NCBI RefSeq assembly: GCF_000280495.2
Contig: NZ_CP018016.1
Span: 4,774,001 to 4,838,000, forward strand
DNA from: Kosakonia radicincitans DSM 16656
Lineage (GTDB): Bacteria; Pseudomonadota; Gammaproteobacteria; Enterobacterales; Enterobacteriaceae
Length of the DNA: 64,000 nucleotides
Direction: 5' to 3'
Under the pieces are notes generated by a model. That model was not told the DNA's origin, did no database searches, and was given only the letters and a program-made list of their open reading frames with translations. Position numbers and translations under genes: made by a program. The number at the start of each line of letters is the position of its first letter. Position 1 is the first letter of the stretch. Below, in pieces: positions 2,748 to 35,917 of this stretch.

Positions 2748-4055
2748 CTATGCGCGATGCGGCTGATCGTCGGTGCTGGCCAGAACCCGATCATCGGCTT
2801 GCAGATCGCATTTCTTCGGCAACAGGAAGGTGATCGTCCCGGCGATAATCAGTGAACCCGCCAGGGCGCAGACGGCCACATTCTGCCCGTAAAAGTAGAT
2901 CATCACGCCGACCAGATACGGGCCGCAGAAACCACCCAGATTGCCCAGACCGTTGATCACGCCACGCGCGCTACCGGCCACTTCCGGCGAGGCAATCCTT
3001 CCGGGAATAGACCAGAACGGGCTGGTCGCCGCCTTGAGGAAGAAACCGCACATCACCAGCGCAATATAAGCCGCCACCACATGTTCGCGTAACAATACCG
3101 AAGCTAGCAGTGAGGCAGCGAAACAGTACAGGGAGAGACGCACCCAGGCGCGACGTTTACCGCTGCGATCGCTGAATAGCGAGATGGTATAGATCCCGGC
3201 AAGCGTGGCAACAAAAGGTAAGATCGCCAGAACTCCGACCCCGGCCATATTGGCGCCAGTCAGATTTTTCAGGATCGTCGGCAACCACAGTGTGTAGCCA
3301 TAATCCCCGGTCTGGTAGAAGAAGTTGAGCACCACCAGCTTCATCAGGCCGGCATTGCGGAACACATCTTTTACCGGCGCATTGCTGACCGCCTCTTCCG
3401 CCAGCCGCGCTTCACGCTCGCGCGCCAGCGTGGTGACCAGATATTCGCGTTCGCTGGCTGGCAGCCAGTGCGCCTCTTCCGGCCGATCGCTGATCAGCCG
3501 CCACCACACCAGCAGCACCACCAGTGAAAGCAGCCCTTCGATGATAAACAGCCAGCGCCAGTCGAGCGCCGCGATGATCGCCCCGGAAACCGGCGCAGTC
3601 AGCATGCCGCCAAGCGGGGCAAACATCATGACAAACGCATTCGCCCGGCCCACCTCTTTTTCCGGGAACCAGTTGCTGACCATCGTCAGCACCACCGGCA
3701 ACATTCCCCCTTCGGAAACGCCGAGGATAAAGCGCAGTACCAGCAGTTGATACTCATGCGTTACGAATCCAGTGGCGACAGAAACCACCGCCCACGCCAG
3801 CAGCGACCAGGCGATAAAACGCTTGCCGCTGCCGTTTACCGCGCTACGCCCGCCGGGAATTTGCAAGAACAGATAACCGATAAAAAAGATCCCGCTGGCG
3901 ACGCCAGCCATCTGGCTGGTGATGCCTAAATCCGCTTCCATACCGCCTGGCAGCGCGAAGCTGATATTAACCCTGTCCATAAACGAAATAATGCAGGCAA
4001 TAAGCACAGGCGCAATGATCCGCCACCAGCGCGTGCCGGGTATTTTAGTGTTCAT
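2748..4055 (-). CDS. MFS transporter, anion:cation symporter (ACS) family
   Basis: 435 residues with twelve hydrophobic segments and ACS-type motifs: FMDRVNISFALPG in the first helix region, FLQIPGGR before the second loop, and LGVSEGGMLPVV in helix 4. ACS members such as ExuT, DgoT and the GudP/GarP group import hexuronates, aldonates and aldarates with protons. The neighbours (D-2-hydroxyacid dehydrogenase upstream, IdnO and gluconate kinase across the regulator) suggest a gluconate or keto-gluconate substrate. The exact substrate cannot be read from sequence. Confidence 0.87.
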   Translation of the reverse strand: MNTKIPGTRWWRIIAPVLIACIISFMDRVNISFALPGGMEADLGITSQMAGVASGIFFIGYLFLQIPGGRSAVNGSGKRFIAWSLLAWAVVSVATGFVTHEYQLLVLRFILGVSEGGMLPVVLTMVSNWFPEKEVGRANAFVMMFAPLGGMLTAPVSGAIIAALDWRWLFIIEGLLSLVVLLVWWRLISDRPEEAHWLPASEREYLVTTLAREREARLAEEAVSNAPVKDVFRNAGLMKLVVLNFFYQTGDYGYTLWLPTILKNLTGANMAGVGVLAILPFVATLAGIYTISLFSDRSGKRRAWVRLSLYCFAASLLASVLLREHVVAAYIALVMCGFFLKAATSPFWSIPGRIASPEVAGSARGVINGLGNLGGFCGPYLVGVMIYFYGQNVAVCALAGSLIIAGTITFLLPKKCDLQADDRVLASTDDQPHRA

Positions 4056-5244: not shown

Positions 5245-6237
5245 TCAGATGGTTTCGCCCATCGACAGGCGATAGTGCAAATCGACGTGTTCAATGGTTG
5301 GCAAGCCTTTGATTTTCTTGAGCAGGATTTCGGTCGCGACCTTTCCCATCTCGAATCGCGGGGTCAAAACGCTGGCCAGACGCGGGCTGATAACCTGCCC
5401 AATCTCCAGGCCGTGGAACCCGGCAATCGCGATCTCAGCAGGCACTTTTATCCCGGAAGTAAGGCACTCCTGTAACACCCCAACGGCAAGGTCGTCGTTA
5501 GTACATAAAATACCGTCCATATCCGGGTACATTTGCCGCGCCAGTGTCATCATGCCGGTGCCGATAGAAATCGAGGACACCTTATTTGGCGCAATGCGTC
5601 CGACCGGTAAACCCTGCGCTTCCATCGCCTGGCAGTAACCGGTATAACGCTGCTCGTCGCGCACATCAGACATCGAGCCGAAGTAGATAATGCGCCGCTT
5701 GCCGCTGGCCAGCAGCATCGTGGTCATATCAAAACCGGCCTTCATATTGTCGAAACCGACATTGATCCGATCGGCATTCGACGACAACCCCATCACTTCG
5801 GCAATCGGAATTTTGGCCGCTTTCAGATACTTTTCCGCCCGCAGACTATGAACCGACTCAGTAAGCAGCAACCCTTTGACATTAAAGGCTAAAACCGTAG
5901 CAATTTGCTCCTCCTCGCGCTGACTGTCGTAGTCATAATTGACCACCAGCGTCTGGTAGCCCTGCGCAGAAGTGACCGATTCAATCCCGGCGAGCAAGTC
6001 GGCAAAGATTTGATTATTAAAAGAGGGGATCAGCACGCCGATGCGCGGCAGCACGTTGGCAGACATCGCCGGATTATCCGGGTCGGGTTGGTACCCCACT
6101 TCAGCAATGACACTGGCGATACGCTCGGCCGTGTCGGGCTTCACCTTCTCCGGCGTGCGCAGATAGCGGCTGACCGTCATTTTAGTTACGCCCGCCAGCG
6201 CAGCGATATCATGCAAAGTAATACGTTGTGCCTTCAT
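5245..6237 (-). CDS. LacI-family transcriptional regulator, IdnR-like
   Basis: 330 residues from the chosen start. The N-terminal helix-turn-helix reads ITLHDIAALAGVTKMTVSR. It is followed by a hinge and a periplasmic-binding-like effector domain with GVLIPSFNNQIFADLLAGIE, ILCTNDDLAVG and IAIAGFHGLEIGQVI. These resemble E. coli IdnR and GntR-type gluconate regulators rather than LacI itself. An ORF extends upstream to 6336, but the ATG at 6237 has an AGGACAGG-type ribosome site and puts the HTH at the usual place. It sits between the two operons it probably controls. The likely effector is a gluconate derivative. Confidence 0.88.
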   Translation of the reverse strand: MKAQRITLHDIAALAGVTKMTVSRYLRTPEKVKPDTAERIASVIAEVGYQPDPDNPAMSANVLPRIGVLIPSFNNQIFADLLAGIESVTSAQGYQTLVVNYDYDSQREEEQIATVLAFNVKGLLLTESVHSLRAEKYLKAAKIPIAEVMGLSSNADRINVGFDNMKAGFDMTTMLLASGKRRIIYFGSMSDVRDEQRYTGYCQAMEAQGLPVGRIAPNKVSSISIGTGMMTLARQMYPDMDGILCTNDDLAVGVLQECLTSGIKVPAEIAIAGFHGLEIGQVISPRLASVLTPRFEMGKVATEILLKKIKGLPTIEHVDLHYRLSMGETI

Positions 6238-14530: not shown

Positions 14531-15445
14531 TCAGGGCGCGAGTGCCAGCACTTCTGCCACCCAGTGACGAAAACCCTCAACATCAATATCCAGCGCAACC
14601 TGCGCATTCGGCTTCTGCTTCAGCTTGCCGTCGATATCCACCACCGTTGTGCCGGAGGTGTATTGCCCCTGCGTCTCCACCGCCACAAAACAGGATTTCA
14701 GCGTAAACAGTTCCGGACGGGCCAGCCAGGCAATCGTGCAGAGATCGTGCATACGCAGCCCGCTGGTCATGCTACCGCTACGATAGTGACTAAACAGCGC
14801 ATGCAGCATATGCCCGGTTTTGTTGAGCGCGGGCATCGTCGCGAGGAACTCAGGCGTCAACGTCGCCCGATTCGTGACATCCAGCCCGCACATCACGATC
14901 TCAAGGCCGCTCTGAAAAACACGGGCAGCAGCTTCGGGATCGATAGCAATATTGAATTCAGCGTTTGGTGTGAAGTTACCCCGCCCGGCGGAGCCCCCCA
15001 TCATCACCAGACGACGGATATTGAACTGGCACTCCGGGTAGTGTGACAGCAGCAGCGCGATATTGGTTAACGGGCCGATGGTCACCAGCGTAACGGGTTC
15101 AGCAGACGCCATCAGCGTATCGCGTATTGCCTGAAATGCCGGTTTAGCCAGAGGCTGGCGCTGATGCTCGACAAAGTCGTAGCCATCCATGCCGGACTCC
15201 CCGTGCACTTCGGCGGCGCTGTGCAGCGGGCGCAATAGGGGCGTCGACGCCCCTTGCGCCAGCGGGATATCGGCCTGCCAGAAGTTGAGCAGTTGCAGGG
15301 CGTTGCGGGTAGTTTTTTCCAGCGAGACATTACCGGCGACGGTGGTAATCAGTTTAAGTTCGCACTGCGGTGCATACAGCGCGGCAGCAATGGCAACGGC
15401 ATCGTCAATGCCCGGATCGGTGTCAAGAATCATTGGCAAACGCAT
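14531..15445 (-). CDS. rihC: RihC, non-specific ribonucleoside hydrolase
   Basis: 304 residues. It hydrolyses purine and pyrimidine ribonucleosides to base and ribose. The calcium-binding and catalytic motif [13 protein letters not shown] is right at the N-terminus. Further signatures are [22 protein letters not shown] and the late active-site His in [14 protein letters not shown]. The ORF opens at 15469, but the ATG at 15445 has CAGGAGG five bases upstream and gives the E. coli N-terminus MRLP. It is the last gene after ispH, 76 bases away, and may be transcribed with it. Confidence 0.95.
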
Positions 15446-15521: not shown

Positions 15522-16472
15522 TTATTCGACCTCGCGAACATCAACCCTTAGCTCTTTTGGCACTTCAAAGACAATGTTTTCTTCACGACCTTCCAGCGGG
15601 ATGGCTTCACCGCCGCCCAGCTCCTGCAGGCGGGCAATCACGTTCTGCACAAGAATGTCCGGCGCGGAGGCACCGGCGGTTACGCCTACACATTTGATGT
15701 CTTTAACCCAGGCTTCCTGGATATCAGAAGCGTCATCAATCAAATAAGCGCTTTTCCCCATCCGCTGCGCCAGCTCGGCCAGACGGTTGGAGTTGGAAGA
15801 GTTTTTCGAGCCGACTACCAGCACCACTTCCGCCTGTTCAGCCAGCGCCCGCACCGCTTCCTGGCGGTTAGTCGTGGCGTAACAGATGTCATCTTTACGC
15901 GGGCCAACAATCTGCGGGAAGCGGGCGCGCAGTGCGTCAATAACATCAGAAGTATCGTCCACTGAGAGCGTGGTCTGCGTCATAAATGACAGTTTACCCG
16001 CATCTTTGATGTTGAGCGTAGCAACATCGGCAGGCGATTCAACCAGGTACATACCCCCTTTCGGGTTGCTGTACTGCCCCATTGTACCTTCTACTTCAGG
16101 ATGCCCTGCGTGACCGATCAGGATCGCTTCCTCACCGCGTCGGCTGGCGCGAGCCACTTCCATATGCACTTTTGTCACCAACGGACAGGTGGCGTCGAAA
16201 ACCGTCAGATCGCGGCTTTTCGCTTCGTTACGTACCGCCTGGGAAACACCATGGGCAGAAAAAATCAGGATTGCGCCATCCGGTACTTCACTTAACTGCT
16301 CAATGAAAATAGCCCCGCGCTCGCGCAGGCTATCAACAACATAACGGTTGTGCACCACTTCGTGACGCACATAAATTGGCGCGCCGTACAGAGCCAGCGC
16401 GTTTTCAACAATGCTGATAGCGCGGTCAACGCCGGCGCAAAAACCGCGCGGGTTAGCCAACAGGATCTGCAT
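15522..16472 (-). CDS. ispH: IspH, 4-hydroxy-3-methylbut-2-enyl diphosphate reductase
   Basis: 316 residues, the E. coli length. This [4Fe-4S] enzyme performs the last step of the MEP isoprenoid pathway, making IPP and DMAPP. Cluster cysteines are visible in [13 protein letters not shown] near the N-terminus, in DATCPLVTK in the middle, and in [13 protein letters not shown]. The acid/base region is IFSAHGVS. The chosen ATG at 16472 gives [10 protein letters not shown]; longer readings run into fkpB. It overlaps the end of fkpB by 20 bases. Confidence 0.98.
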
Positions 16473-27678: not shown

Positions 27679-27702
27679 ATGGGCAAGCCAAAATTCATTT
27701 AG
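27679..27702 (+). pseudogene. Orphaned 5' end of satP (start codon and ribosome site cut off by the element)
   Basis: GAGGAATT precedes an ATG whose reading runs M-G-K-P-K-F-I-stop. The first two codons (ATG GGC) and the next AA are what an intact satP start (M-G-N-T-K-L) needs. The sequence then diverges exactly at TGGGCAA, the left copy of the 7-bp repeat. This is the native satP start left behind when the element inserted; it now yields at most a seven-residue peptide. Confidence 0.8.
27680..27686 (+). repeat. attL core TGGGCAA
   Basis: Left copy of the 7-bp direct repeat, inside the stranded satP start (A-TGGGCAA-G). Short identical cores are usual for large serine recombinases. Confidence 0.75.
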
Positions 27703-27723
27703 GAAAAGAAAAAATCACATTAG

Positions 27724-27742
27724 CGTTAATGATAATCATTCC
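27724..27742. promoter_or_regulatory. Fur-box-like site
   Basis: TAATGATAATCATT (27727-27740) matches the centre of the 19-bp Fur consensus GATAATGATAATCATTATC base for base. It overlaps the weak -35 (TTCCCA, 27739-27744) that, with a 17-base spacer, pairs with the -10 TAAAAT (27762-27767) for the Fur-like gene. Binding by host Fur or by the element's own regulator would block this promoter. Confidence 0.7.
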
Positions 27743-27805
27743 CAAACACAGAATTTCGTGATAAAATAACCGAACACCAGGAAAACACACAAAACAGGAG
27801 ACATA

Positions 27806-28150
27806 TTGACCCCAACGCCCATGCTGCCAGCGTTTGCAGCGCCTACAGATGAGGAACGCGCTACCCTCGCCGCGATCCTGAATGACACCGGCCTCCGTGC
27901 CACAGTCCCCCGGATTAATGTCTTGCATTACCTGAACACAACCGATATTCCCGTAACCGCTGAGATGACCAGCCGGTGCGTTGACGTGCCACTATCGACT
28001 GCGTACAGAACGCTCACCGCACTCGAAATTAATCACCTCGCCGGAGTGACCTTCGCGCGTGGTGATGTCACACGCTGGTTCCGTTTCCTCCCGGATACAC
28101 CGCAGCACTGTCCTGCATGTGGGCAGAGCTTTTACGGCGAATACGCCTGA
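27806..28150 (+). CDS. Short Fur-family regulator encoded by the element
   Basis: 114 residues. The middle aligns with the Fur winged helix: TGLRATVPRINVLHYL corresponds to AGLKVTLPRLKILEVL of E. coli Fur, and PLSTAYRTLTALE to the recognition helix GLATVYRVLNQFD. The wing is followed by HCPACGQSF, equivalent to the CxxC of Fur. The protein then stops. It lacks the His-rich HHHDH metal site and nearly all of the dimerisation domain of the ~148-residue family. The start is a TTG at 27806 with AGGAG five bases before it; the next ATG (27821) is too far away. Family membership is by eye and fairly secure; function is unknown. Confidence 0.75.
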   Translation: MTPTPMLPAFAAPTDEERATLAAILNDTGLRATVPRINVLHYLNTTDIPVTAEMTSRCVDVPLSTAYRTLTALEINHLAGVTFARGDVTRWFRFLPDTPQHCPACGQSFYGEYA

Positions 28151-28268
28151 CCACCTGAGACACAAGTACTGACGAGATGACCGCATATTACGGTCACGCC
28201 AAATGACGCTCACCAGAGAGCGCCATAGACCCGCTACACCCTTTACTCACTGATTACGGAGAACAACT

Positions 28269-28775
28269 ATGATTACAAAAAGACAGGCTCAGAGAGCCGC
28301 AGAGAGCGATTTACAGGCATTTATAACTGAGGCCGCCGCCCGGTTCAAACCCGACGCAACCGTATTAGCCGCGCGGATCGAAACCGCCGTCCAACGTTAC
28401 ACCGCCAGCAGCACCACACAACGTTTCCACGCCGCCGCGCCGCTGGCAATCCAGCAACTCCAGGAGAAGATATTGGAGGGGTGGCGATACGATATCGGCA
28501 TCCCGCAGTCCGTTTACGTTGCCGGTACGGGGAATATGAGTATCACGCTCCGCAAACCGGCGGAGCTGGTGGAGCAGGAGATAGCTGACCTGAAACGGCA
28601 GGTTGAGGATTCATACCACAACGAACTCGCCGCCGCGATGGAACGTGAGGTTGATAAACTGGTGCAGGACGCCGCCAACGAGGCACAGCGCCGTGCAGAG
28701 GAAGCCGCAGCCGCAGAACGGGACGCTATGCGCCAGCGTCTCCGCGATATGCTGCTGACCGGGGCGACAGCATGA
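28269..28775 (+). CDS. Unknown element protein, helical and charged
   Basis: 168 residues, not recognised. It is rich in Ala, Glu, Gln and Arg. The C-terminal part (KRQVEDSYHNELAAAMEREV and onwards to about residue 160) looks like a long coiled coil. It starts at an ATG with GGAG eight bases upstream. Its stop overlaps the next start as ATGA. Such proteins occur in phage and satellite early operons, but no function can be assigned. Confidence 0.7.
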   Translation: MITKRQAQRAAESDLQAFITEAAARFKPDATVLAARIETAVQRYTASSTTQRFHAAAPLAIQQLQEKILEGWRYDIGIPQSVYVAGTGNMSITLRKPAELVEQEIADLKRQVEDSYHNELAAAMEREVDKLVQDAANEAQRRAEEAAAAERDAMRQRLRDMLLTGATA

Positions 28776-28924
28776 CAGCTACCAAAACCAAAAGCGGGCC
28801 ACCAGCGCCCGCACATATCGACCCGGATGCACTGGAGCGAGCTATTGCCGCCGCTCGCACAATCAAAGCTGCCAACCCGGACAGGTACAAATCGCTGCCC
28901 GTCCAGCCGGAGGTTAAACGATGA
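28772..28924 (+). CDS. Small element protein of 50 residues
   Basis: Starts MTATKTKSGPPAPAHIDPDA and ends PVQPEVKR. It overlaps both neighbours by four bases (ATGA at each end), a strong sign that it is translated as part of the chain. No recognised domain; a basic, Ala/Pro-rich peptide with one short predicted helix (LERAIAAARTIKAA). Confidence 0.65.
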   Translation: MTATKTKSGPPAPAHIDPDALERAIAAARTIKAANPDRYKSLPVQPEVKR

Positions 28925-29118
28925 AAATTTACGATATCACCGTGACGGGAACAACCGCCGACTGGCTGGCCGCCACGCGCGGGAATATACCTCTGCCGGT
29001 GTTCGTTCGTAAGCTGCTAACGGAGATCGCCAGCAATCCGGAAAAATATAACGACCTGACCCAAACCCTTAACGACTCAGTGGAGTGCAAATGCCAAACC
29101 CGAACAACGAAAAAATAA
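28921..29118 (+). CDS. Small element protein of 65 residues
   Basis: MKIYDITVTGTTADWLAATR followed by a region rich in Leu and Glu. The C-terminus is basic with two Cys (ECKCQTRTTKK). It is coupled to the previous gene by ATGA and overlaps the helicase gene by 28 bases. Not recognised. It could be a DNA-binding or accessory replication factor from its position, which is inference only. Confidence 0.65.
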   Translation: MKIYDITVTGTTADWLAATRGNIPLPVFVRKLLTEIASNPEKYNDLTQTLNDSVECKCQTRTTKK

Positions 29119-30428
29119 TTGTTAACGCCGCCAATGATTCCGATGGGATCTACATCGACGAAAAAAACGAACATGAGCGACTGGCACACCAGTTTGCGGA
29201 ATACCTGATTAACCAGGGCTTCATCTATCTGGCTCGCAAAAACGGTGCAGACCTGTATAGCACGTTGACAGGTAAATTCCATCCGTTCCACGCGGAGACT
29301 AACCTCTATCAGCAGTGGCTGCGAAAACAGCCAGAGCACAGCGGTCACAATCCCCTGTTACACGATATTCTCCGCCAGCGGATTAAATACGCATCGGCGC
29401 GTGAGTTTATCCCCGGAGGCGCTCGCCCTCTGGTATACGAAGCGGACGGTGTACCCGTACTGAATACGTGGAAGCCATACGAACCACAGACAACCGACAC
29501 AGCCGGTATTGATTTGTCACTCTGGGTTGAATATCTGGAACGCCTGTTCCCGGACGCTGGCGAGCGGCACACCGTTGTACAATGGCTGGCGCATATGTTC
29601 CAGCACCCGGAGGTTAAACCCTCATGGCACCTCATGCTGACGAGTGCGACCGGCACAGGGAAAGGATTCCTGTTCGATCAGGTTCTCTCATCCCTGCTAT
29701 GCGGGCAGGCATCGTTACTCAGTTCGTATGACCGACTAACCGGCCAGTTCAGCACAGTAATCGCTGACAATTTGCTGGTGTTCTTGGACGATTGCCGCAG
29801 TAGCTCAAAATCACTACATACCCGTTTGAAATCCCTGCTGACAGAGCGCCACCAGCAGATCGAGGAGAAGCAGGAGCAGGCCCGGATGGTCTCAACTTAT
29901 ACGCGGTTTATCCTCGCCAGCAACGAGCGACGCCCGATCCGCTTTTCCCCGAACGAGCGTGAGCGCCGTTGGTTCGTCGTCCGGTTCATGGAGCATCGCC
30001 ATAACCCAGAAGAGACCGGCGAATTTATTGGTCGATTAGCGCAATGGCTAACGCAGGATGGCAGCCTCGATGCCATTTACTGGTGGTTGATGGCCTGTGA
30101 CCTGACCGGGTTCAACCCGCATCATTGCCACGTGACGGAGACACTGGCGGAGATGCAGGAACAATCGCGATCCATGCTGGATATCGGGTTATCCGACTGG
30201 CTGGAGTCAAACCGGGTCTTCAAAATGGAAACGGTACGCCTGCTGTTTGATGCACCGGCAGACCTGATTAAGCACAGGCTGGAGGAACTTGGATATCGAC
30301 AAGCGCCAATCAATACCAATGGGCAGGGGGTAGATCGCTCTCGCTACTGGTTCCCGGCAGACTGGAAACCCAAAAAGGCGGCGCAGTGGCTGGAGGATGC
30401 AGCAGACGGTACGACAGAGCAATTCTGA
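29091..30428 (+). CDS. SF3-type helicase / DUF5906-like replication protein
   Basis: 445 residues. It has a Walker A at about residue 190 (LTSATGTGKGFLFDQV), a Walker B at about residue 230 (NLLVFLDDCRSS), and a sensor/arginine-finger block FILASNERRPIRFSPNERER typical of superfamily 3 helicases of phages and satellites. The C-terminal part resembles a small winged helix. There is no visible primase domain. The ATG at 29091 has GGAG five bases before it; a GTG at 29085 lies within the ribosome site. It is probably the element's replication initiator/helicase, with the repeats just downstream as candidate origin. Confidence 0.85.
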   Translation: MPNPNNEKIIVNAANDSDGIYIDEKNEHERLAHQFAEYLINQGFIYLARKNGADLYSTLTGKFHPFHAETNLYQQWLRKQPEHSGHNPLLHDILRQRIKYASAREFIPGGARPLVYEADGVPVLNTWKPYEPQTTDTAGIDLSLWVEYLERLFPDAGERHTVVQWLAHMFQHPEVKPSWHLMLTSATGTGKGFLFDQVLSSLLCGQASLLSSYDRLTGQFSTVIADNLLVFLDDCRSSSKSLHTRLKSLLTERHQQIEEKQEQARMVSTYTRFILASNERRPIRFSPNERERRWFVVRFMEHRHNPEETGEFIGRLAQWLTQDGSLDAIYWWLMACDLTGFNPHHCHVTETLAEMQEQSRSMLDIGLSDWLESNRVFKMETVRLLFDAPADLIKHRLEELGYRQAPINTNGQGVDRSRYWFPADWKPKKAAQWLEDAADGTTEQF

Positions 30429-30430
30429 CA

Positions 30431-30453
30431 GGGAGCTACACGCTCCCTTTTTT
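30431..30453 (+). terminator. Terminator of the replication operon
   Basis: GGGAG-ctacacg-CTCCC followed by six T, directly after the helicase stop. Confidence 0.85.
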
Positions 30454-30476
30454 GCGTCCATCAGTCGAAAAAACCC

Positions 30477-30590
30477 AAATAATCCCACCCATACAGAAAA
30501 TAATCCCACGACAATCCCAGAATGAAAACCAATAAAATCATTACAAATCAACAATTAATATAAATAATCCCGATAAGCCCAGCAATCCCG
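30477..30590. repeat. AATCCC iteron-like repeats, candidate replication origin
   Basis: Five copies of AATCCC occur in about 110 bases (30481, 30502, 30513, 30566, 30584). Three have the longer form ATAATCCC and all are in the same orientation, in AT-rich DNA directly after the helicase gene and its terminator. From here to 31004 no convincing gene is seen; 30845-30895 is extremely AT-rich (AAATATATTTAAATATTTG). This fits an origin with iterons and a melting region. Confidence 0.55.
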
Positions 30591-30970
30591 CATCCTTATT
30601 TATATACAACGTTAGTTACTGTGGCGCACGCCAGTAAGCAACAGGGGCAGCCGTAGGCAAAGCGAAGCGCCGTGTGCAAATCTAAAGTGGCGGCACTGTT
30701 CCTGGCTAAGGGACAACGCCGTAGCGCTAAACAAGATTCGACTCCACCGGGCCAGCCTTATGCACACGAAAAATATCTGGGATCATTTCCCATGACAAAT
30801 TTGTCGCCAGCAGGCACAGCAACGCCCACAGCGATCTACACGACGCCGGTTTTCCCACATTAAATATATTTAAATATTTGTTATTTAACAAAAATAAAGC
30901 GTTGCATTAGTGAAAGAGAAAAGCACGGTCAAGTTTTCACAAAGGGTATACCTGAAATGAAGAGCGCAAT

Positions 30971-31060
30971 CGTGAACAAAGTCATTCACAATGAGTAGTA
31001 AAAATTGACTCTATGTAGATAGTTCACGTAAAATAATGATATGATAACTTAATGTGAACA
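30971..31060 (+). promoter_or_regulatory. Promoter of the small resolvase with GTGAAC repeats
   Basis: TTGACT (31005-31010), an 18-base spacer and TAAAAT (31029-31034) form a good sigma-70 promoter. It is surrounded by GTGAA-N8-TTCAC (30972-30989) and by GTTCAC (31022-31027) with GTGAAC (31054-31059). The repeats could be resolvase binding sites or operators. Confidence 0.65.
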
Positions 31061-31067
31061 AAAAATA

Positions 31068-31682
31068 ATGACAATGACACACGCATACCTCAGGGCATCC
31101 ACCGACGACCAGGACGCGACACGCGCTCTTGATACACTTAATTACTTTGTGGAAAAACACCAGCTAACAAATGTTGTTCACTACGTTGAAAACTTCTCTG
31201 GTGCCAAGCTGGAACGCCCGGAACTTACCCGGTTACTTGCCGCTGCCGAGGATGGTGATTATTTGCTGGTGGAATCTATCGACCGCTTGACCCGGCTCCC
31301 CGCTACACAATATGAAGCCTTAAAGGCTCGTATTGAAGAGCGCGGCTTACGTGTCATTGTTGTGGATCTGCCGACCTCCCACGATGCGTTAAAATCCAAA
31401 CCTGGTGATCGTATAATAGAACTTGTCAATGGTCTGATGATGGACATTGCAGCCCATTATGCACACGAGGACTACACCAAACGCCGCCAGCGTCAGGCGC
31501 AAGGCATCGCCAAGGCTAAGGCTGAAAACAAGTACAAAGGCAGACCGGCAGATATCAATCTGCGAAGTAAGATTGAGTCGTACCTCAACAAAGGCGGGAA
31601 TACCTATGCTGAGATCGCGAAGTTATGTGATTGCTCCATTGGCATGGTCGCCAAGGTGAAGAAGATTTTCGAAACTCCCTGA
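31068..31682 (+). CDS. Small serine recombinase (resolvase/invertase family)
   Basis: 204 residues. The catalytic domain has AYLRASTDDQDATRAL with the nucleophilic Ser in the RAST motif, FSGAKLERPELTRLL, and LLVESIDRLTRLPATQYE. After a long helix, a C-terminal helix-turn-helix (YAEIAKLCDCSIGMVAKVKK) binds DNA. The start is ATG 31068 or the in-frame ATG 31074. Proteins of this form resolve dimers or invert DNA; here it may resolve multimers of the excised element or control a switch. Confidence 0.88.
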   Translation: MTMTHAYLRASTDDQDATRALDTLNYFVEKHQLTNVVHYVENFSGAKLERPELTRLLAAAEDGDYLLVESIDRLTRLPATQYEALKARIEERGLRVIVVDLPTSHDALKSKPGDRIIELVNGLMMDIAAHYAHEDYTKRRQRQAQGIAKAKAENKYKGRPADINLRSKIESYLNKGGNTYAEIAKLCDCSIGMVAKVKKIFETP

Positions 31683-32014
31683 CAAATCACAATCACAACC
31701 ATCGCCAGCCTGGTCTGATATTTTCCAAAGATTCAGAGCAACTATTACGAACGGTGCAAATCGGTTAGGCCGTACTGCTCGAGCTACATGATATTTGCGC
31801 CGCTGGCTATGTATAAGGTAGTGGTACTTCTGAAACCTTCTCGGCGGGGGAGGTGAGAGGGCTCGGGGATATTGCTCCCCCCCTGCGTCAATCAGTTACT
31901 CAAGCAAGCCATTCAACGGTGCTCACGTTGCGTATAAACAGCTATTTCCGCACTCCTAAAGTGCAATTGGCTATACTTATTCTTTTTAAATAATCCGCCT
32001 TGTTTCGATGGAGA
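31683..32014. other. Gene-free spacer between the resolvase and glycosyltransferase genes
   Basis: 332 bases between converging genes. Apart from a short G/C hairpin (GGGG-atattgct-CCCC, 31865-31880), no gene, promoter or clear repeat is seen. Confidence 0.5.
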
Positions 32015-32956
32015 TTATTTCATCTTGGTTACAAGTTTGATGAAAAAACAGACATCACTGAAACTGCGTATCCCTTGCCAAAGAAGTCGTAGAGAAACAC
32101 GATTCCGAAATGCCTTCTTTATATCAGTACGCTTTTGTACGCGACGTCGATATAGCCCGAGAAAATGCCGTGCTTCAACCAGAGCATGGCGCAGAAGATA
32201 ACTACGTATCAGGCGATTTTCCGGCAGATGCGCCTGTTGGTGTAATTCATCTATGACATCAATATAATCCAATGCACGATAATCAAAATAATCAGCCCGA
32301 TGGGTAATGGATGCAACATTGGTTCGCCAAGTATAATCCTTGTGATCCGAGATGTAGAACACCCCATTACTTACTGCCAGTTGCACGGACCAGAGGATAT
32401 CTTTGTGGCTTTTCCCCGCATGGAACACTATTCCATGCTTATGCAGGTAGGCTGAACGCGTTATCTGTAACCAGAGATAATGTGGCCACTCTCGTTGACT
32501 GACACAATGACGAATCCATTTGTGTCCAGTTAGCTGTTGCCTGTAAAGTTGCTTACTGTGTACAGGTCTGGCTGGTTCACCATCAGCTCCACACCAAGCA
32601 TTAAAGAGCACTACGTCAGCCTGAGTTTCAATAGCAGTGCACCAGCGTTTGTAGATAAACTCGTCAGCAACACAGTCGTCAGCGTCAAGAAATATCACCC
32701 ATTCGCCACAATGAACGGCTAACGCCGCATTCCTGGCGGCGTAGACGCCTTGGTTTTCCTGCTCCAAAAGGATAATGCGAGGGTCATTGTATCTTTGGAC
32801 TATATTGCTGGTAGCATCAGTCGAACCATCGTTAACGACGATCAACTCCATCTCTACACGGTTTTCCTTTAGAAGGCTATCGATTAGCCCACCAATTGTG
32901 GTTTCAGCGTTATAGGCTGGGATAATGATACTGACATCTGGTGTAAGAGACCGCAC
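32015..32956 (-). CDS. Family 2 glycosyltransferase, WaaH-like
   Basis: 313 residues. GT-A fold motifs are VSIIIPAYNAETT at the N-terminus, VVNDGSTDAT, ENQGVYAARNAAL, and the DxD metal site in IFLDADDCVADEF. The middle pattern WIRHCVSQREWPHYLW ... AGKSHKDILWSVQLA resembles WaaH (YibD), an LPS-core glucuronyltransferase of E. coli. The frame opens with a GTG at 33007, but the GTG at 32956 is preferred. It shares one base with the upstream stop (TAGTG) and has AAGGGG eight bases before it. Probably surface-sugar-modifying cargo. Confidence 0.8.
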   Translation of the reverse strand: MRSLTPDVSIIIPAYNAETTIGGLIDSLLKENRVEMELIVVNDGSTDATSNIVQRYNDPRIILLEQENQGVYAARNAALAVHCGEWVIFLDADDCVADEFIYKRWCTAIETQADVVLFNAWCGADGEPARPVHSKQLYRQQLTGHKWIRHCVSQREWPHYLWLQITRSAYLHKHGIVFHAGKSHKDILWSVQLAVSNGVFYISDHKDYTWRTNVASITHRADYFDYRALDYIDVIDELHQQAHLPENRLIRSYLLRHALVEARHFLGLYRRRVQKRTDIKKAFRNRVSLRLLWQGIRSFSDVCFFIKLVTKMK

Positions 32957-33123
32957 TAATTGTGCCCCTTCTTGCGCTGTTCTGGTTGACGGATCGGCAG
33001 GGCACACTTCTCCCGAATCTCCTGGTTGGTATCTAAAAGGCAGGAATCACAATATTTATCGTCAAGAGCAAATAAACGCTCCAGGATGTTTCGCTTTTTC
33101 CCGCAGCGGGCACAGTTATGCAT
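32956..33123 (-). CDS. Small zinc-ribbon protein of 55 residues
   Basis: Begins MHNCARCGKKRNILERLFAL and continues to CDSC near residue 25. Two CxxC pairs 17 residues apart form a typical treble-clef/zinc-ribbon knuckle. It ends QPEQRKKGHN. The ATG has AGGAA upstream. Its stop overlaps the glycosyltransferase start as TAGTG, so the two form a coupled pair. Not recognised beyond the zinc motif. Confidence 0.7.
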   Translation of the reverse strand: MHNCARCGKKRNILERLFALDDKYCDSCLLDTNQEIREKCALPIRQPEQRKKGHN

Positions 33124-33192
33124 ATTGATATTCCTGGTGGATTAATTGCAGCGAGGAGATTGAGTTCAGGATAGCCTTATCGATATCGTATC

Positions 33193-33228
33193 ATTGATCA
33201 ATTTTATAGATCAATTGTCAGGGTCCAA
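33193..33228 (-). promoter_or_regulatory. Promoter with overlapping inverted repeat for the zinc-ribbon/glycosyltransferase pair
   Basis: On the minus strand, TTGGAC (33223-33228), a 16-base spacer and TAAAAT (33201-33206). The -10 is flanked by a 7-bp inverted repeat, ATTGATC (33193-33199) and GATCAAT (33209-33215), a likely operator. The rest of the 432-base gap 33124-33555 shows no gene; the 78-residue plus-strand ORF in it has no ribosome site and no recognisable content. Confidence 0.5.
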
Positions 33229-33555
33229 CTTGGTTTACCTGACAGTAGAAGGGAAAAGCAGAGATGGCCATCCACAGAGAGAAATCGAGATAAAACGATA
33301 TGCACTGATTATCAGTGGGTTGTTGATGGCTTTCTGCGTCCAACGCCAGGCGCATCACGCTGAACAATCCAGACAAGCAAGAACTACCCAGAGGAAAGCT
33401 CCTGTGGAGCCTGTTCATTTACACCAGTAGTGCCTCAGGTACGTTGACTTACATCACCAAGTCAAAGCATTGCTCATACAGTAAGACGTTGACCACAGAC
33501 GATGCGAAATAGGCAGGTAACTCTACATCACCCGCAGCACCAGAATAATTTTCAA

Positions 33556-35301
33556 CTACTTGCTAACAAACCATGACGCTTTCAGTGGAGGAAAAGCAGA
33601 TAATATCTCATCCACTTTGTCATGCTGCGCCTTTATCAACTCGCCGAGCTTGGAAGACAGAGCAGGCTCAATGCCATCATGCATCTCAACACTCTGATCT
33701 TCGATATGTATGGAGTACCCTCGGCGAATCCAGCCTCTATTATCGGTCTGAATCTCGCCTTGGTAAATAAACTGTTGACGATCATAAACATCAAAAATCA
33801 GCTTTAAGGCCTTATCTTCGCCCTTACCGATCGTGACGCAAGCTATAACCGCCCGGACAACCTCCCGGATATTCAACCGGTCTGGATCTGTTGTGTCCTC
33901 AAGCAACTCGGGGGTTATCAACTCCATCGTATCAACGATTTTTTCAATCTGCTGGTCACGGGAACCTTGCAACAATTCGCGCTGAGTTAACTTGTCCAGA
34001 TCAACCAAAATGGCGGACTTTCTGGACTCAAATCCTTGAAGCATCGCCACCAGGGAGCCAAGATTTCCGCCCATTGAGATCGCAGTTGTGGTGTTATCGA
34101 TCTGCAACTGTATAGCCTCCAATTCACTCCGCTTAGAATCTATCAGCCCGGAAATTGATTGCTCTGAATCCTGCTTATCCATCACCAGCGAGATATAACC
34201 GGTTATGAGCGGCTGTAACAAACACCGTTCAACCAACGCGCCCGAAACACTCCAGGCTTTGCAGGACGACATTCGTTTTTTCCCCGATTCGCACATATAG
34301 CGGATTTTGCCCTGCTTACTGGATGATGTCATGGCACCACCGCAGTGACTACAGCGCAAAATCCCCATACCAGAAAGTAGCGTGATCACCTGTTTTTGCT
34401 CCCCCTGTGGCATCTTGTTGTTACTGGCTACATCTTGAAGTCTTGCAAACTCAGCAGCTGTACAGACGGGCGGAAAATAGCTTTCCAGATGATGAGTAAC
34501 GTTGTTCAGGGTTAAAACCTTCTCCCCCATCAACGCGCGATTCAACCGCATTTTCTTAATATTCGGCACCGTCCAGCGCACTTCTTTTCTTTCGTTCTTA
34601 CTCTTCTTCCCTGCCGGTGGCGGATAAATCTCACTGTTATCGTTCAGGTAGTTGGTCACCCGATAGTTACCCCAGCCGGACAGTAAAAGTCTAACGGCCT
34701 CTTTAGCAGCCTTGAAGTGTGTTGGGTGAGGCTTCACGGCTTCGTTATTCGGCCCGGAAGCGTCGATCCACCAAGGAGAAGAACCTGCACTTTTTATATT
34801 TACAGGAAGCCCGGATCGATATCGTTCAATCAGTTTAAGCGTGGTTTCAAAGGCACGCTTTTGTTTGGTGAGAGATTCCTCGTTGGCTCTCATAAACAGC
34901 AGAATGGACAGCATCAAATCCGTGGGATTTTGGTTCACACTATCGCGGGTAAAAATCTTCCCATCCATACCGGTGACCAAAGTCAGTCCCAATCGCAGGA
35001 GACGGAGAAAGAGTTCGTTGGCGGTGGTGGCATCTGCACGACTCAGACGATCAAGATTTTCAACGTACAGCCACGAATCAGAGGGAATAACCCCACTTTC
35101 TACAGCAGAAATAAATCCTGCTAATTTCCCGCTTGTGCTATTCTTCGCGCGAAACGCTGAGACGCCCGCATCAAGGAGCTGGACATACTCCAAACCATGA
35201 ATAGCAGCGTACTGTTTCGCCTTTTCAGTCTGACGCTCCAGGGAAGTATTTCCTGTCTGTTTGTCAGTGGACCAACGTACATAGGAATAGAGTTTTTTCA
35301 T
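33556..35301 (-). CDS. Large serine recombinase (integrase of the element)
   Basis: 581 residues. The resolvase-like catalytic domain has YSYVRWSTDKQTGNTSLERQ and LYVENLDRLSRADATTANEL. It is followed by a recombinase domain and a zinc ribbon (GILRCSHCGGAMTSSSKQ ... YMCESGKKRMSSCKAW) near residues 315-355. A coiled-coil region near residues 390-450 and a C-terminal tail follow. This is the domain order of phage-type large serine integrases. The start codon at 35299-35301 overlaps the satP start codon on the other strand. Only about 50 bases separate it from attR, so its promoter must lie in satP DNA or, in the excised circle, in the left end of the element. Confidence 0.92.
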   Translation of the reverse strand: MKKLYSYVRWSTDKQTGNTSLERQTEKAKQYAAIHGLEYVQLLDAGVSAFRAKNSTSGKLAGFISAVESGVIPSDSWLYVENLDRLSRADATTANELFLRLLRLGLTLVTGMDGKIFTRDSVNQNPTDLMLSILLFMRANEESLTKQKRAFETTLKLIERYRSGLPVNIKSAGSSPWWIDASGPNNEAVKPHPTHFKAAKEAVRLLLSGWGNYRVTNYLNDNSEIYPPPAGKKSKNERKEVRWTVPNIKKMRLNRALMGEKVLTLNNVTHHLESYFPPVCTAAEFARLQDVASNNKMPQGEQKQVITLLSGMGILRCSHCGGAMTSSSKQGKIRYMCESGKKRMSSCKAWSVSGALVERCLLQPLITGYISLVMDKQDSEQSISGLIDSKRSELEAIQLQIDNTTTAISMGGNLGSLVAMLQGFESRKSAILVDLDKLTQRELLQGSRDQQIEKIVDTMELITPELLEDTTDPDRLNIREVVRAVIACVTIGKGEDKALKLIFDVYDRQQFIYQGEIQTDNRGWIRRGYSIHIEDQSVEMHDGIEPALSSKLGELIKAQHDKVDEILSAFPPLKASWFVSK

Positions 35302-35917
35302 GGCTCACACAGAAAATAATAAAGATTCTGAGATTATCACCTTTTCGAACTTGGGCAACACTAAGTTGGCTAATCCGGCTCCGCTGGGCTTAATGGGTTT
35401 CGGCATGACCACTATTCTGCTTAACCTGCACAATATTGGTTTATTCCCAATGGACGGCATTATTCTGGCGATGGGCATTTTCTATGGCGGTATCGCACAA
35501 ATTCTCGCGGGCCTGCTTGAATATAAAAAAGGCAACACCTTTGGTTTAACTGCATTCACCTCTTACGGTTCTTTCTGGTTGACGCTGGTCGCTATTCTGC
35601 TGTTTCCGAAAATGGGCCTTGCGGATGCGACAAACGGCCACTTCCTTGGCGTTTATCTGGGGATTTGGGGCGTCTTCACCCTGTTTATGTTCTTCGGCAC
35701 GCTGAAAGGCGCTCGTGCGCTGCAGTTCGTTTTCCTGAGCCTGACCATACTGTTCGCCCTGCTGGCGGTAGGTCATCTGGCTGATAACGAAAGCATCGTA
35801 CATGTCGCGGGCTGGATCGGTCTGGTTTGCGGCGCGAGCGCCATCTACCTGGCGATGGGCGAAGTGCTGAACGAACAGTTCGAACGCACAGTTCTGCCAA
35901 TTGGTGAAAAGCATTAA
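35300..35917 (+). CDS. satP: SatP, acetate/succinate:proton symporter, with element-derived N-terminus
   Basis: 205 residues. From residue 19 (GNTKLANPAPLGLMGFGMTT) it is the normal YaaH/SatP inner-membrane carrier with six helices and the NPAPLGL signature, and it ends TVLPIGEKH. The first 18 residues, M-A-H-T-E-N-N-K through N-L, come from the element; E. coli SatP starts directly at MGNTKL. An alternative is a TTG at 35351, which would give almost the native start but has no ribosome site. The ATG at 35300 has only a weak GAG or AGGA upstream. Expression may therefore be changed or lost while the element is integrated. Confidence 0.88.
   Translation: MAHTENNKDSEIITFSNLGNTKLANPAPLGLMGFGMTTILLNLHNIGLFPMDGIILAMGIFYGGIAQILAGLLEYKKGNTFGLTAFTSYGSFWLTLVAILLFPKMGLADATNGHFLGVYLGIWGVFTLFMFFGTLKGARALQFVFLSLTILFALLAVGHLADNESIVHVAGWIGLVCGASAIYLAMGEVLNEQFERTVLPIGEKH
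35352..35358 (+). repeat. attR core TGGGCAA
   Basis: Right copy of the 7-bp direct repeat, at the junction of element DNA and the native satP codons (T-TGGGCAA-CACTAAG). Confidence 0.75.

Follow-up and report, generated by a model that had tools for sequence, protein, structure and literature searches.

The window analyzed here, a stretch of 64,000 nucleotides from Kosakonia radicincitans DSM 16656 (contig NZ_CP018016.1, positions 4,774,001 to 4,838,000), contains an integrated element of 7,672 bp (27687 to 35358) at the start of satP. Two forward-strand copies of TGGGCAA, at 27680 to 27686 and 35352 to 35358, bracket the insert. The left copy, the attL core, is immediately preceded by the ribosome site of the native satP gene and by the A of its ATG; at the right copy, the attR core, the satP start codon becomes TTG (35351 to 35353). 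A gene for a large serine integrase of 581 amino acids lies on the reverse strand at 33556 to 35301. The window contains 10 copies of the TGGGCAA 7-mer, and at least 10 copies were also present in 73 of 100 shuffles. Because this is a chance-level frequency, the insertion claim rests on comparison with relatives.

satP was searched for in 28 relatives, of which 23 matched and 20 yielded loci. Sixteen junctions were read, comprising the window itself, 14 empty loci (13 from the same genus and 1 from another genus) and 1 occupied locus (K. oryziphila); 4 loci from other families (L037 to L040) were dropped because the alignment was too weak at the satP start. Each of the 14 empty loci has its upstream flank joined to satP on one TGGGCAA and reads ATG GGC AAC ACT AAG TTG, the MGNTKL start that a first-pass annotation of this DNA had expected from rejoining the flanks. 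An empty Escherichia coli locus (L117) likewise carries TGGGCAA once and reads ATG-GGC-AAC-ACT-AAG at an intact satP start; its flanks are identical to those of an occupied E. coli locus (L003) over the 60 bases compared on each side. The annotation had held that the TGGGCAA copies define the element to the base, and the single copy in these empty loci agrees with this. It had also called for a search of related genomes for satP with and without the insert, asking whether uninterrupted relatives already carry an N-terminal extension of satP and whether empty sites exist; none of the uninterrupted relatives read has the extension, and empty sites exist. The junction sequences demonstrate that a predicted circle with a large serine integrase inserted at codons 1 to 2 of satP through TGGGCAA, as had been proposed.

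Occupied sites were found beyond the window. By megablast, which would miss more diverged integrases, the integrase occupies the satP site in 4 of 5,426 complete E. coli genomes. The K. oryziphila locus (L001, the same as L025) is occupied by a decayed copy with a remnant of 2,553 bp, and Salmonella arizonae (L002) still has the same attR at satP, together with an integrase fragment of 173 residues. The metagenome contig L079 matches window positions 27687 to 31317 at 89% nucleotide identity and is also at the satP site; judged by eye, it starts in a diverged satP upstream flank and its small recombinase gene is broken by an IS3-like transposase. The element measures 7,672 bp in the window and 8,988, 10,990 and 7,457 bp in E. 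coli, the last being L005, with which L006 is identical over the 7,700 bases compared.

At attR, ATG GGC AAC is changed to TTG GGC AAC, in which TTG is still an in-frame start codon, and in the NCBI annotation satP starts at this TTG in each of the 4 E. coli genomes that carry the insert. A second in-frame ATG lies at 35300, 51 nucleotides upstream, and overlaps the ATG of the integrase as CATG. The earlier statement that the interrupted satP lacks a start of its own does not hold; as read from the sequence, the element end provides satP with in-frame start codons. The 17 codons from the upstream ATG (35300 to 35350, forward strand) would form an element-supplied N-terminal extension. They vary among occupied loci, and the frame is stop-free in all seven (the window and L001 to L006), which hold four different sequences, the four E. 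coli copies being identical there. This is suggestive only, because 17 codons are often open by chance and the att sequence is separately constrained. Both the insertion of serine integrases into protein-coding genes and the restoration of an entered gene by an island are known in general (PMC10083194, PMC12884075). Around the central GG of the core, the inner 4 bp match in 3 of 4 attP (CTTG-GG-CAAG). Over 22 pairs, attP is no more symmetric than shuffles (746 to 798 of 2,000 as good) and attB not clearly so (300 of 2,000), so that symmetry does not settle the crossover dinucleotide.

The integrase matches three Pfam domains above their cut-offs: Resolvase (49.3 bits; cut-off, 23.3), Recombinase (22.7 bits; cut-off, 21.1) and zinc ribbon (33.5 bits; cut-off, 25.3). 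Residues R9, S11, D84, R85 and R88, which we presume by analogy to be catalytic, are invariant across 13 sequences. Eighteen other integrases are 92 to 96% identical, the named ones in Klebsiella, Raoultella and Leclercia; that is, the gene appears to have been transferred recently between genera. The phage relatives found are only 25 to 31% identical, and a sequence search of the PDB with the integrase returned no match. In its Resolvase, Recombinase and zinc-ribbon domains, its short shared core and its protein-coding target, the enzyme resembles integrases of the phiC31/Bxb1 type. It differs from them in that the target is the satP start codon and the element end supplies in-frame starts.

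The idea that every related serine integrase targets a start codon was dropped: in L081 and L087 the gene that we take to be ycdX is hit internally, and L080 is intergenic between the presumed ybhB and ybhC, these names being assigned by eye. The integrase inside ycdX in L081 (11800 to 11900) is 56 to 57% identical to that of the window, and its joint, GTTGGGCAACCC, resembles the satP joint, CTTGGGCAACAC. In L083, L085, L086 and L092, related serine integrases (38 to 63% identical) lie at the 5′ end of a gene that we take to be rimO; with its native starts likewise assumed, this gene seems to have been given replacement first codons. L082 (8030 to 8230 and 15380 to 15600) holds a related serine-integrase element with nadA on one side and the 5′ end of pnuC on the other, and pnuC, if its native start is where we assume it to be, appears to gain an element-supplied TTG start behind GAGG. 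A small secreted-looking protein of about 70 to 87 amino acids with TMSNP and VYSN motifs recurs near the integrases in L080, L081, L082 and L083.

The left part of the element encodes, on the forward strand, a set of proteins that we use to define a backbone family: mini-Fur, p168, p50, a replication protein and a small serine recombinase, in this order. Mini-Fur (27806 to 28150) has 114 amino acids. p168 (28269 to 28775) matched no family above cut-off and gave no hit at an E value of ≤0.001 in fold searches of the PDB or BFVD. It is followed by p50 (28772 to 28924), a small protein that recurs in relatives, and p65 (28921 to 29118), which accompanies the DUF5906-type replication gene and has left a 19-residue remnant in L012. 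The replication protein (29085 to 30428; 447 amino acids) was assigned as a DUF5906 helicase type by profile scans. Downstream, an iteron-like sequence, AAATAATCCCAC, occurs twice, 21 bp apart (30472 to 30571, forward strand), and is a candidate origin; the same spacing is found in L079. A candidate resolvase site (30972 to 31062), consisting of GTGAACAAA repeats 82 bp apart, a spacing that also recurs in L079, and an inverted repeat (31022 to 31059), precedes the small serine recombinase (31068 to 31682; 204 amino acids), which was identified in Pfam and PHROGs scans and is a probable multimer resolvase. All backbone open reading frames are open.

The backbone was also found in plasmids. A plasmid search with it matched 14 records, 12 of them family members from Klebsiella and Leclercia, and none of the 14 matched the integrase region (33556 to 35301), where the plasmids hold a helix-turn-helix gene and others. 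Ten of the 12 are 5.5 to 6.6 kb in length; the remaining two are an 11,644-bp record from Leclercia (L011) and pBio19 (L010), a conjugative plasmid of 292 kb in which the copy is embedded. L011 contains the backbone unit twice, as a dimer or an assembly effect, and a further copy inside a large conjugative plasmid is found in pKFu015_1 (L106). Window positions 27706 to 30865 are 88% identical to plasmid OW849137, and 27758 to 30898 likewise to NZ_CP122577; both plasmids share the p65 and DUF5906 genes of the window. In seven other annotated plasmids (L009 to L011 and L102 to L105), a Gp2/YagK (HUH-like) replication gene lies between the same flanking sequences. By hand count, 32 of the 120 listed among 245 p168 relatives have a longest contig of 5.1 to 7.2 kb. 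Close counterparts among known systems include Klebsiella cryptic plasmids such as pKP-2683-1-6.5, which shares the backbone at 88% nucleotide identity, DUF5906 gene included, and differs in having a helix-turn-helix regulator and hypothetical genes instead of the large integrase. The 12 plasmid records, the copies in conjugative plasmids (L010 and L106) and the small serine recombinase would all fit a cryptic plasmid replicon that needs no helper of its own, is captured on occasion by an integrase module and spreads as a passenger of conjugative plasmids or through transformation. The recurrent pairing of the backbone with at least six integration sites suggests, instead, selection for integration and movement, and we consider passive capture plausible but somewhat short of probable.

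Related backbones are also associated with tyrosine integrases, which lie beside RNA genes: rnpB (L108, L111 and L112), ffs (L113 and L114) and a thiamine pyrophosphate (TPP) riboswitch (L012 and L115). The L111 and L112 elements hold mini-Fur, p168, p50, Gp2 and the small recombinase; together with the window and the plasmids, they have the complete ordered backbone, and other members hold part of it. L113 and L114 have mini-Fur, p168, p50 and a small recombinase, and their integrases match the rnpB-site integrase at just 23 to 24%. One S. arizonae genome (G071) carries both the satP serine-integrase fragment (L084/L002) and the ffs-site element L113. Like L113 and L114, L012 of E. coli N921 holds mini-Fur, p168, p50 and a small recombinase; it is flanked by two TPP riboswitch copies (5758 to 5855 and 16318 to 16414) that are 95% identical over 76 bp; L115 also lies between two such copies (3868 to 3964 and 14784 to 14878). 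In both, the arrangement looks as though the riboswitch had served as attachment site and insertion had restored it. Two elements with other serine integrases, L080 (ybhB-ybhC, with a 16-bp repeat) and L082 (nadA-pnuC), contain mini-Fur, p168, a replication gene and a small recombinase.

An exchange of integrase between nearly identical cores was found in E. coli. L005 (8210 to 12453) and L108 (6001 to 10252) are 97.7% identical over 4.2 kb and share three proteins under the same accessions, and their integrase ends differ: L005 has the serine integrase at satP and L108 a tyrosine integrase at rnpB. Here, in a clean natural case, two unrelated classes of recombinase have integrated nearly the same core, each at a site of its own. 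Remnants of E. coli rnpB-site elements lie beside IS26 in L109 and L110. Since RNA genes harbor related backbones with tyrosine integrases, and integrase-free plasmids harbor others, the integrase looks like a swappable part and not the defining feature of the element. The view in the first-pass annotation that a serine recombinase marks a separate design is, on the same grounds, not supported.

A noncoding block at 30726 to 30864 is a candidate cis site (origin, packaging or partition). It is about 77 to 93% conserved in the 12 family plasmids, L079, L012, L111 and L112, regardless of which replication gene is present and of whether the integrase is a serine enzyme, a tyrosine enzyme or missing. 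In the plasmid collection it was found in only 12 of 72,556 records, the family plasmids, at the sensitivity used; E. coli genomes gave no match in a scan that misses diverged copies, the N921 copy being seen with shorter words. The window copy contains a 12-bp palindrome, GACAAATTTGTC. Positions 30640 to 30870 gave no signal of RNA structure (z scores of 0.21, −1.05 and −0.29), and Rfam returned zero matches over the element as a whole; by these two tests the block is no structured RNA.

If this 140-bp block were a packaging site, the element could be a phage satellite of an undescribed family, in which infection by a helper phage would trigger excision and the DNA would replicate and be packaged into particles of the helper. 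The size of the element, its helicase-type replication protein, the conserved block itself, and the defense genes of relatives (drt2 in L012, PDC-S31 in L080 and a SIR2-like PDC-S25 in L089) are what one would look for in a satellite. Transfer genes are likewise missing from the matches: in the nine element proteins scanned with Pfam and PHROGs, no capsid, terminase, AlpA, Psu, Sid, relaxase or conjugation family was matched, in line with the earlier statement that virion and transfer genes are lacking. The relaxase and conjugation families that would mark a mobilizable or conjugative element were not found in these nine proteins, oriT lying outside the scan. The missing capsid, terminase, AlpA, Psu and Sid families speak against a satellite, as do the 50,697 phage records, which gave no DNA match to the element, and the block, whose phage matches were only at chance level (best E value, 0.2). 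IMG/VR scans, sensitive to close relatives only, gave the single contig L079, which is chromosomal by eye from its satP upstream flank. We regard a satellite as possible but on the doubtful side. An ordinary decaying genomic island composed of unrelated neighbors, which the decayed copies of K. oryziphila and S. arizonae might bring to mind, is very improbable: the backbone reading frames of the window are open, the noncoding block is conserved too among closer members, and, above all, gene order is kept across genera and sites.

We consider it likely that the window element belongs to a family of small integrative replicons, apparently without a name so far, whose integration modules are exchangeable. 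A literature search recognized nothing on the element or its backbone, most subscription journals being outside its scope. Several observations weigh against this interpretation. Several relatives carry only part of the backbone, which lowered our confidence very slightly: L115 retains only a weak p168 fragment and is a weak backbone relative, and the query set used found neither type of replication gene in L012, L113 or L114. The E. coli elements that exchanged integrases have a degenerate mini-Fur and no p168, and what links them to the window is the integrase, layout and a small recombinase that is distant (about 30% identity), not the full backbone; with mini-Fur degenerate and p168 absent, they are an outlying branch of the family. 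The noncoding block was undetected in L080, L082, L106, L113, L114 and the E. coli satP elements. Within the genus, 2 of 15 genomes have the satP element, one of them decayed, and the plasmids are so classed from deposited assemblies. Neither a circular form nor excision was seen, the window's own genome having a single copy each of the integrase and p168, and the analysis identified no recombination directionality factor, helper or packaging signal. A p168 tree of 18 rows has long branches and rough bootstraps; on it, all integration labels together required 6 changes, compared with 8.0 on average in shuffles (12 of 200 shuffles as low). Taken singly, the large serine recombinase label required 4 changes (mean, 3.8; 500 of 500 as low), the tyrosine label 3 (mean, 4.6; 35 of 500) and the plasmid label 5 (mean, 6.2; 134 of 500). 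Integration type as a whole is thus somewhat clustered on the tree; serine integration is not, which counts in favor of exchangeable modules.

By profile and modeled fold, mini-Fur has the winged-helix DNA-binding domain of the Fur type, with a truncated C-terminal part and one CxxC. In a profile search, all 16 PDB sequences listed were Fur-family proteins, one being a designed fusion carrying Fur. In the fold search the top 8 hits were Fur or PerR, with a template modeling score of 0.79 on the target and 1.7 Å for the E. coli Fur domain; MarR folds followed closely, and the model itself is moderate (mean predicted local distance difference test score, 73; low confidence after residue 80). Other signals run counter to the assignment. 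The single-sequence Pfam FUR score of 20.9 is below the cut-off of 23.1, HTH_IclR matches 12 of 13 mini-Fur members and FUR 5 of them (E value of ≤0.01), and searching the PDB with the single sequence returned no Fur, its only hit being a spurious one to a zinc finger. Mini-Fur shares the DNA-binding domain of the Fur/PerR/Zur regulators, and their C-terminal metal-binding and dimerization domain is largely gone, its 114 residues comparing with 131 to 163 in full-length Fur-family PDB chains.

A Fur-box-like operator, TGATAATCATTCCCA, lies before the replication operon at 27730 to 27744 (forward strand). It matches 12 of 14 positions of TGATAATNATTATCA, which we take to be the Fur-box consensus, and 0 of 500 shuffles were as good. 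The operator overlaps the −35 of a predicted promoter (27739 to 27767, forward strand; TTCCCA, 17 bp, TAAAAT; recurring TGATAAAAT) identified by consensus match only. Such a sequence passes in 10 of 20 loci, which are related and hence not independent (≤1.4% of shuffles as good), and reaches 14 of 14 positions in L082. Among the 10 loci that failed, L008, L010 and L102 to L104 share another, 9-1-9 palindrome, and L007, L012, L111, L112 and L113 have no clear Fur box; mini-Fur start positions are approximate in L003, L005, L105, L106 and L111 to L113. In a comparison of operator covariation, the mini-Fur helix was nearly invariant among close members.

For a replicon with an exchangeable integration module, we consider the following cycle the most probable. 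The excised circle would replicate through p65 and the DUF5906 helicase, or in relatives through the HUH-like protein instead, and the small recombinase would act at the repeated GTGAACAAA motifs to resolve multimers, which fits a plasmid phase. In the predicted circle, mini-Fur and the integrase diverge over a 176-bp region with attP and the Fur-box-like operator, from which the integrase and the replication operon would be expressed in opposite directions. Integration would split this region and part the integrase from it, and the native satP promoter would then face the replication operon. The best consensus matches for an integrase promoter are 9 of 12 in the circle and 8 of 12 in the integrated state, too close to tell the two states apart. 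The integration module, integrase plus att site, would be exchanged as one contiguous cassette of the circle, and spread may depend on a helper or on passive transfer. We further suggest, as an unlikely extension, that the family changes lifestyle by exchange of this one cassette, between plasmids, tyrosine-integrated forms at RNA genes and serine-integrated forms at protein starts, with the divergent control region being read by both host Fur and the element's own truncated Fur and with iron starvation releasing the element. If the Fur-box link were true, it would tie a mobile element to iron supply.

Membership in described classes was also considered. P4-like satellites are defined by Psu, Sid, delta-type and alpha primase genes; none of these families was matched in Pfam or PHROGs, the P4-family primase profile scoring 19.7 against a cut-off of 108.7. 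The PICMI satellites of Vibrio, as described in PMC10803314, have an integrase, AlpA and a DUF3987/DUF5906 primase beside fis. Small size, few genes and a DUF5906-type replication protein are common to both, whereas in the window element AlpA and DUF3987 are unmatched, DUF5906 stands alone and the site is satP, which places it outside PICMI. Islands I23, I44 and I55 encode an inovirus Gp2-like protein and have in common about 18 kb, alpA and a tyrosine integrase downstream of tmRNA (PMC12595487), in which they differ from the window element; a Gp2-like protein in relatives of that element and the lack of transfer genes are points of resemblance. ROD21-like (EARL) islands are likewise enterobacterial and grouped by a common excision/integration module. 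They occupy Asn-tRNA genes, most are 21 to 30 kb and most have a relaxase (PMC6035254); the window element differs in its satP site, its 7,672 bp and its unmatched relaxase.

A core that occurs with two integrase classes, and related backbones that occur in integrase-free plasmids, make the exchange of integration modules directly testable. With its predicted attP and attB, the satP integrase is a new candidate tool for enterobacteria, since all 14 empty relatives and the empty E. coli locus retain an intact site. The remaining genes of the element, on the reverse strand between the small recombinase and the integrase, are cargo, in which PADLOC found nothing. They encode a zinc-finger-like protein of 55 amino acids (32956 to 33123), with a Pfam match below cut-off, and a family 2 glycosyltransferase (32015 to 33007), identified in the Pfam and PHROGs scans.

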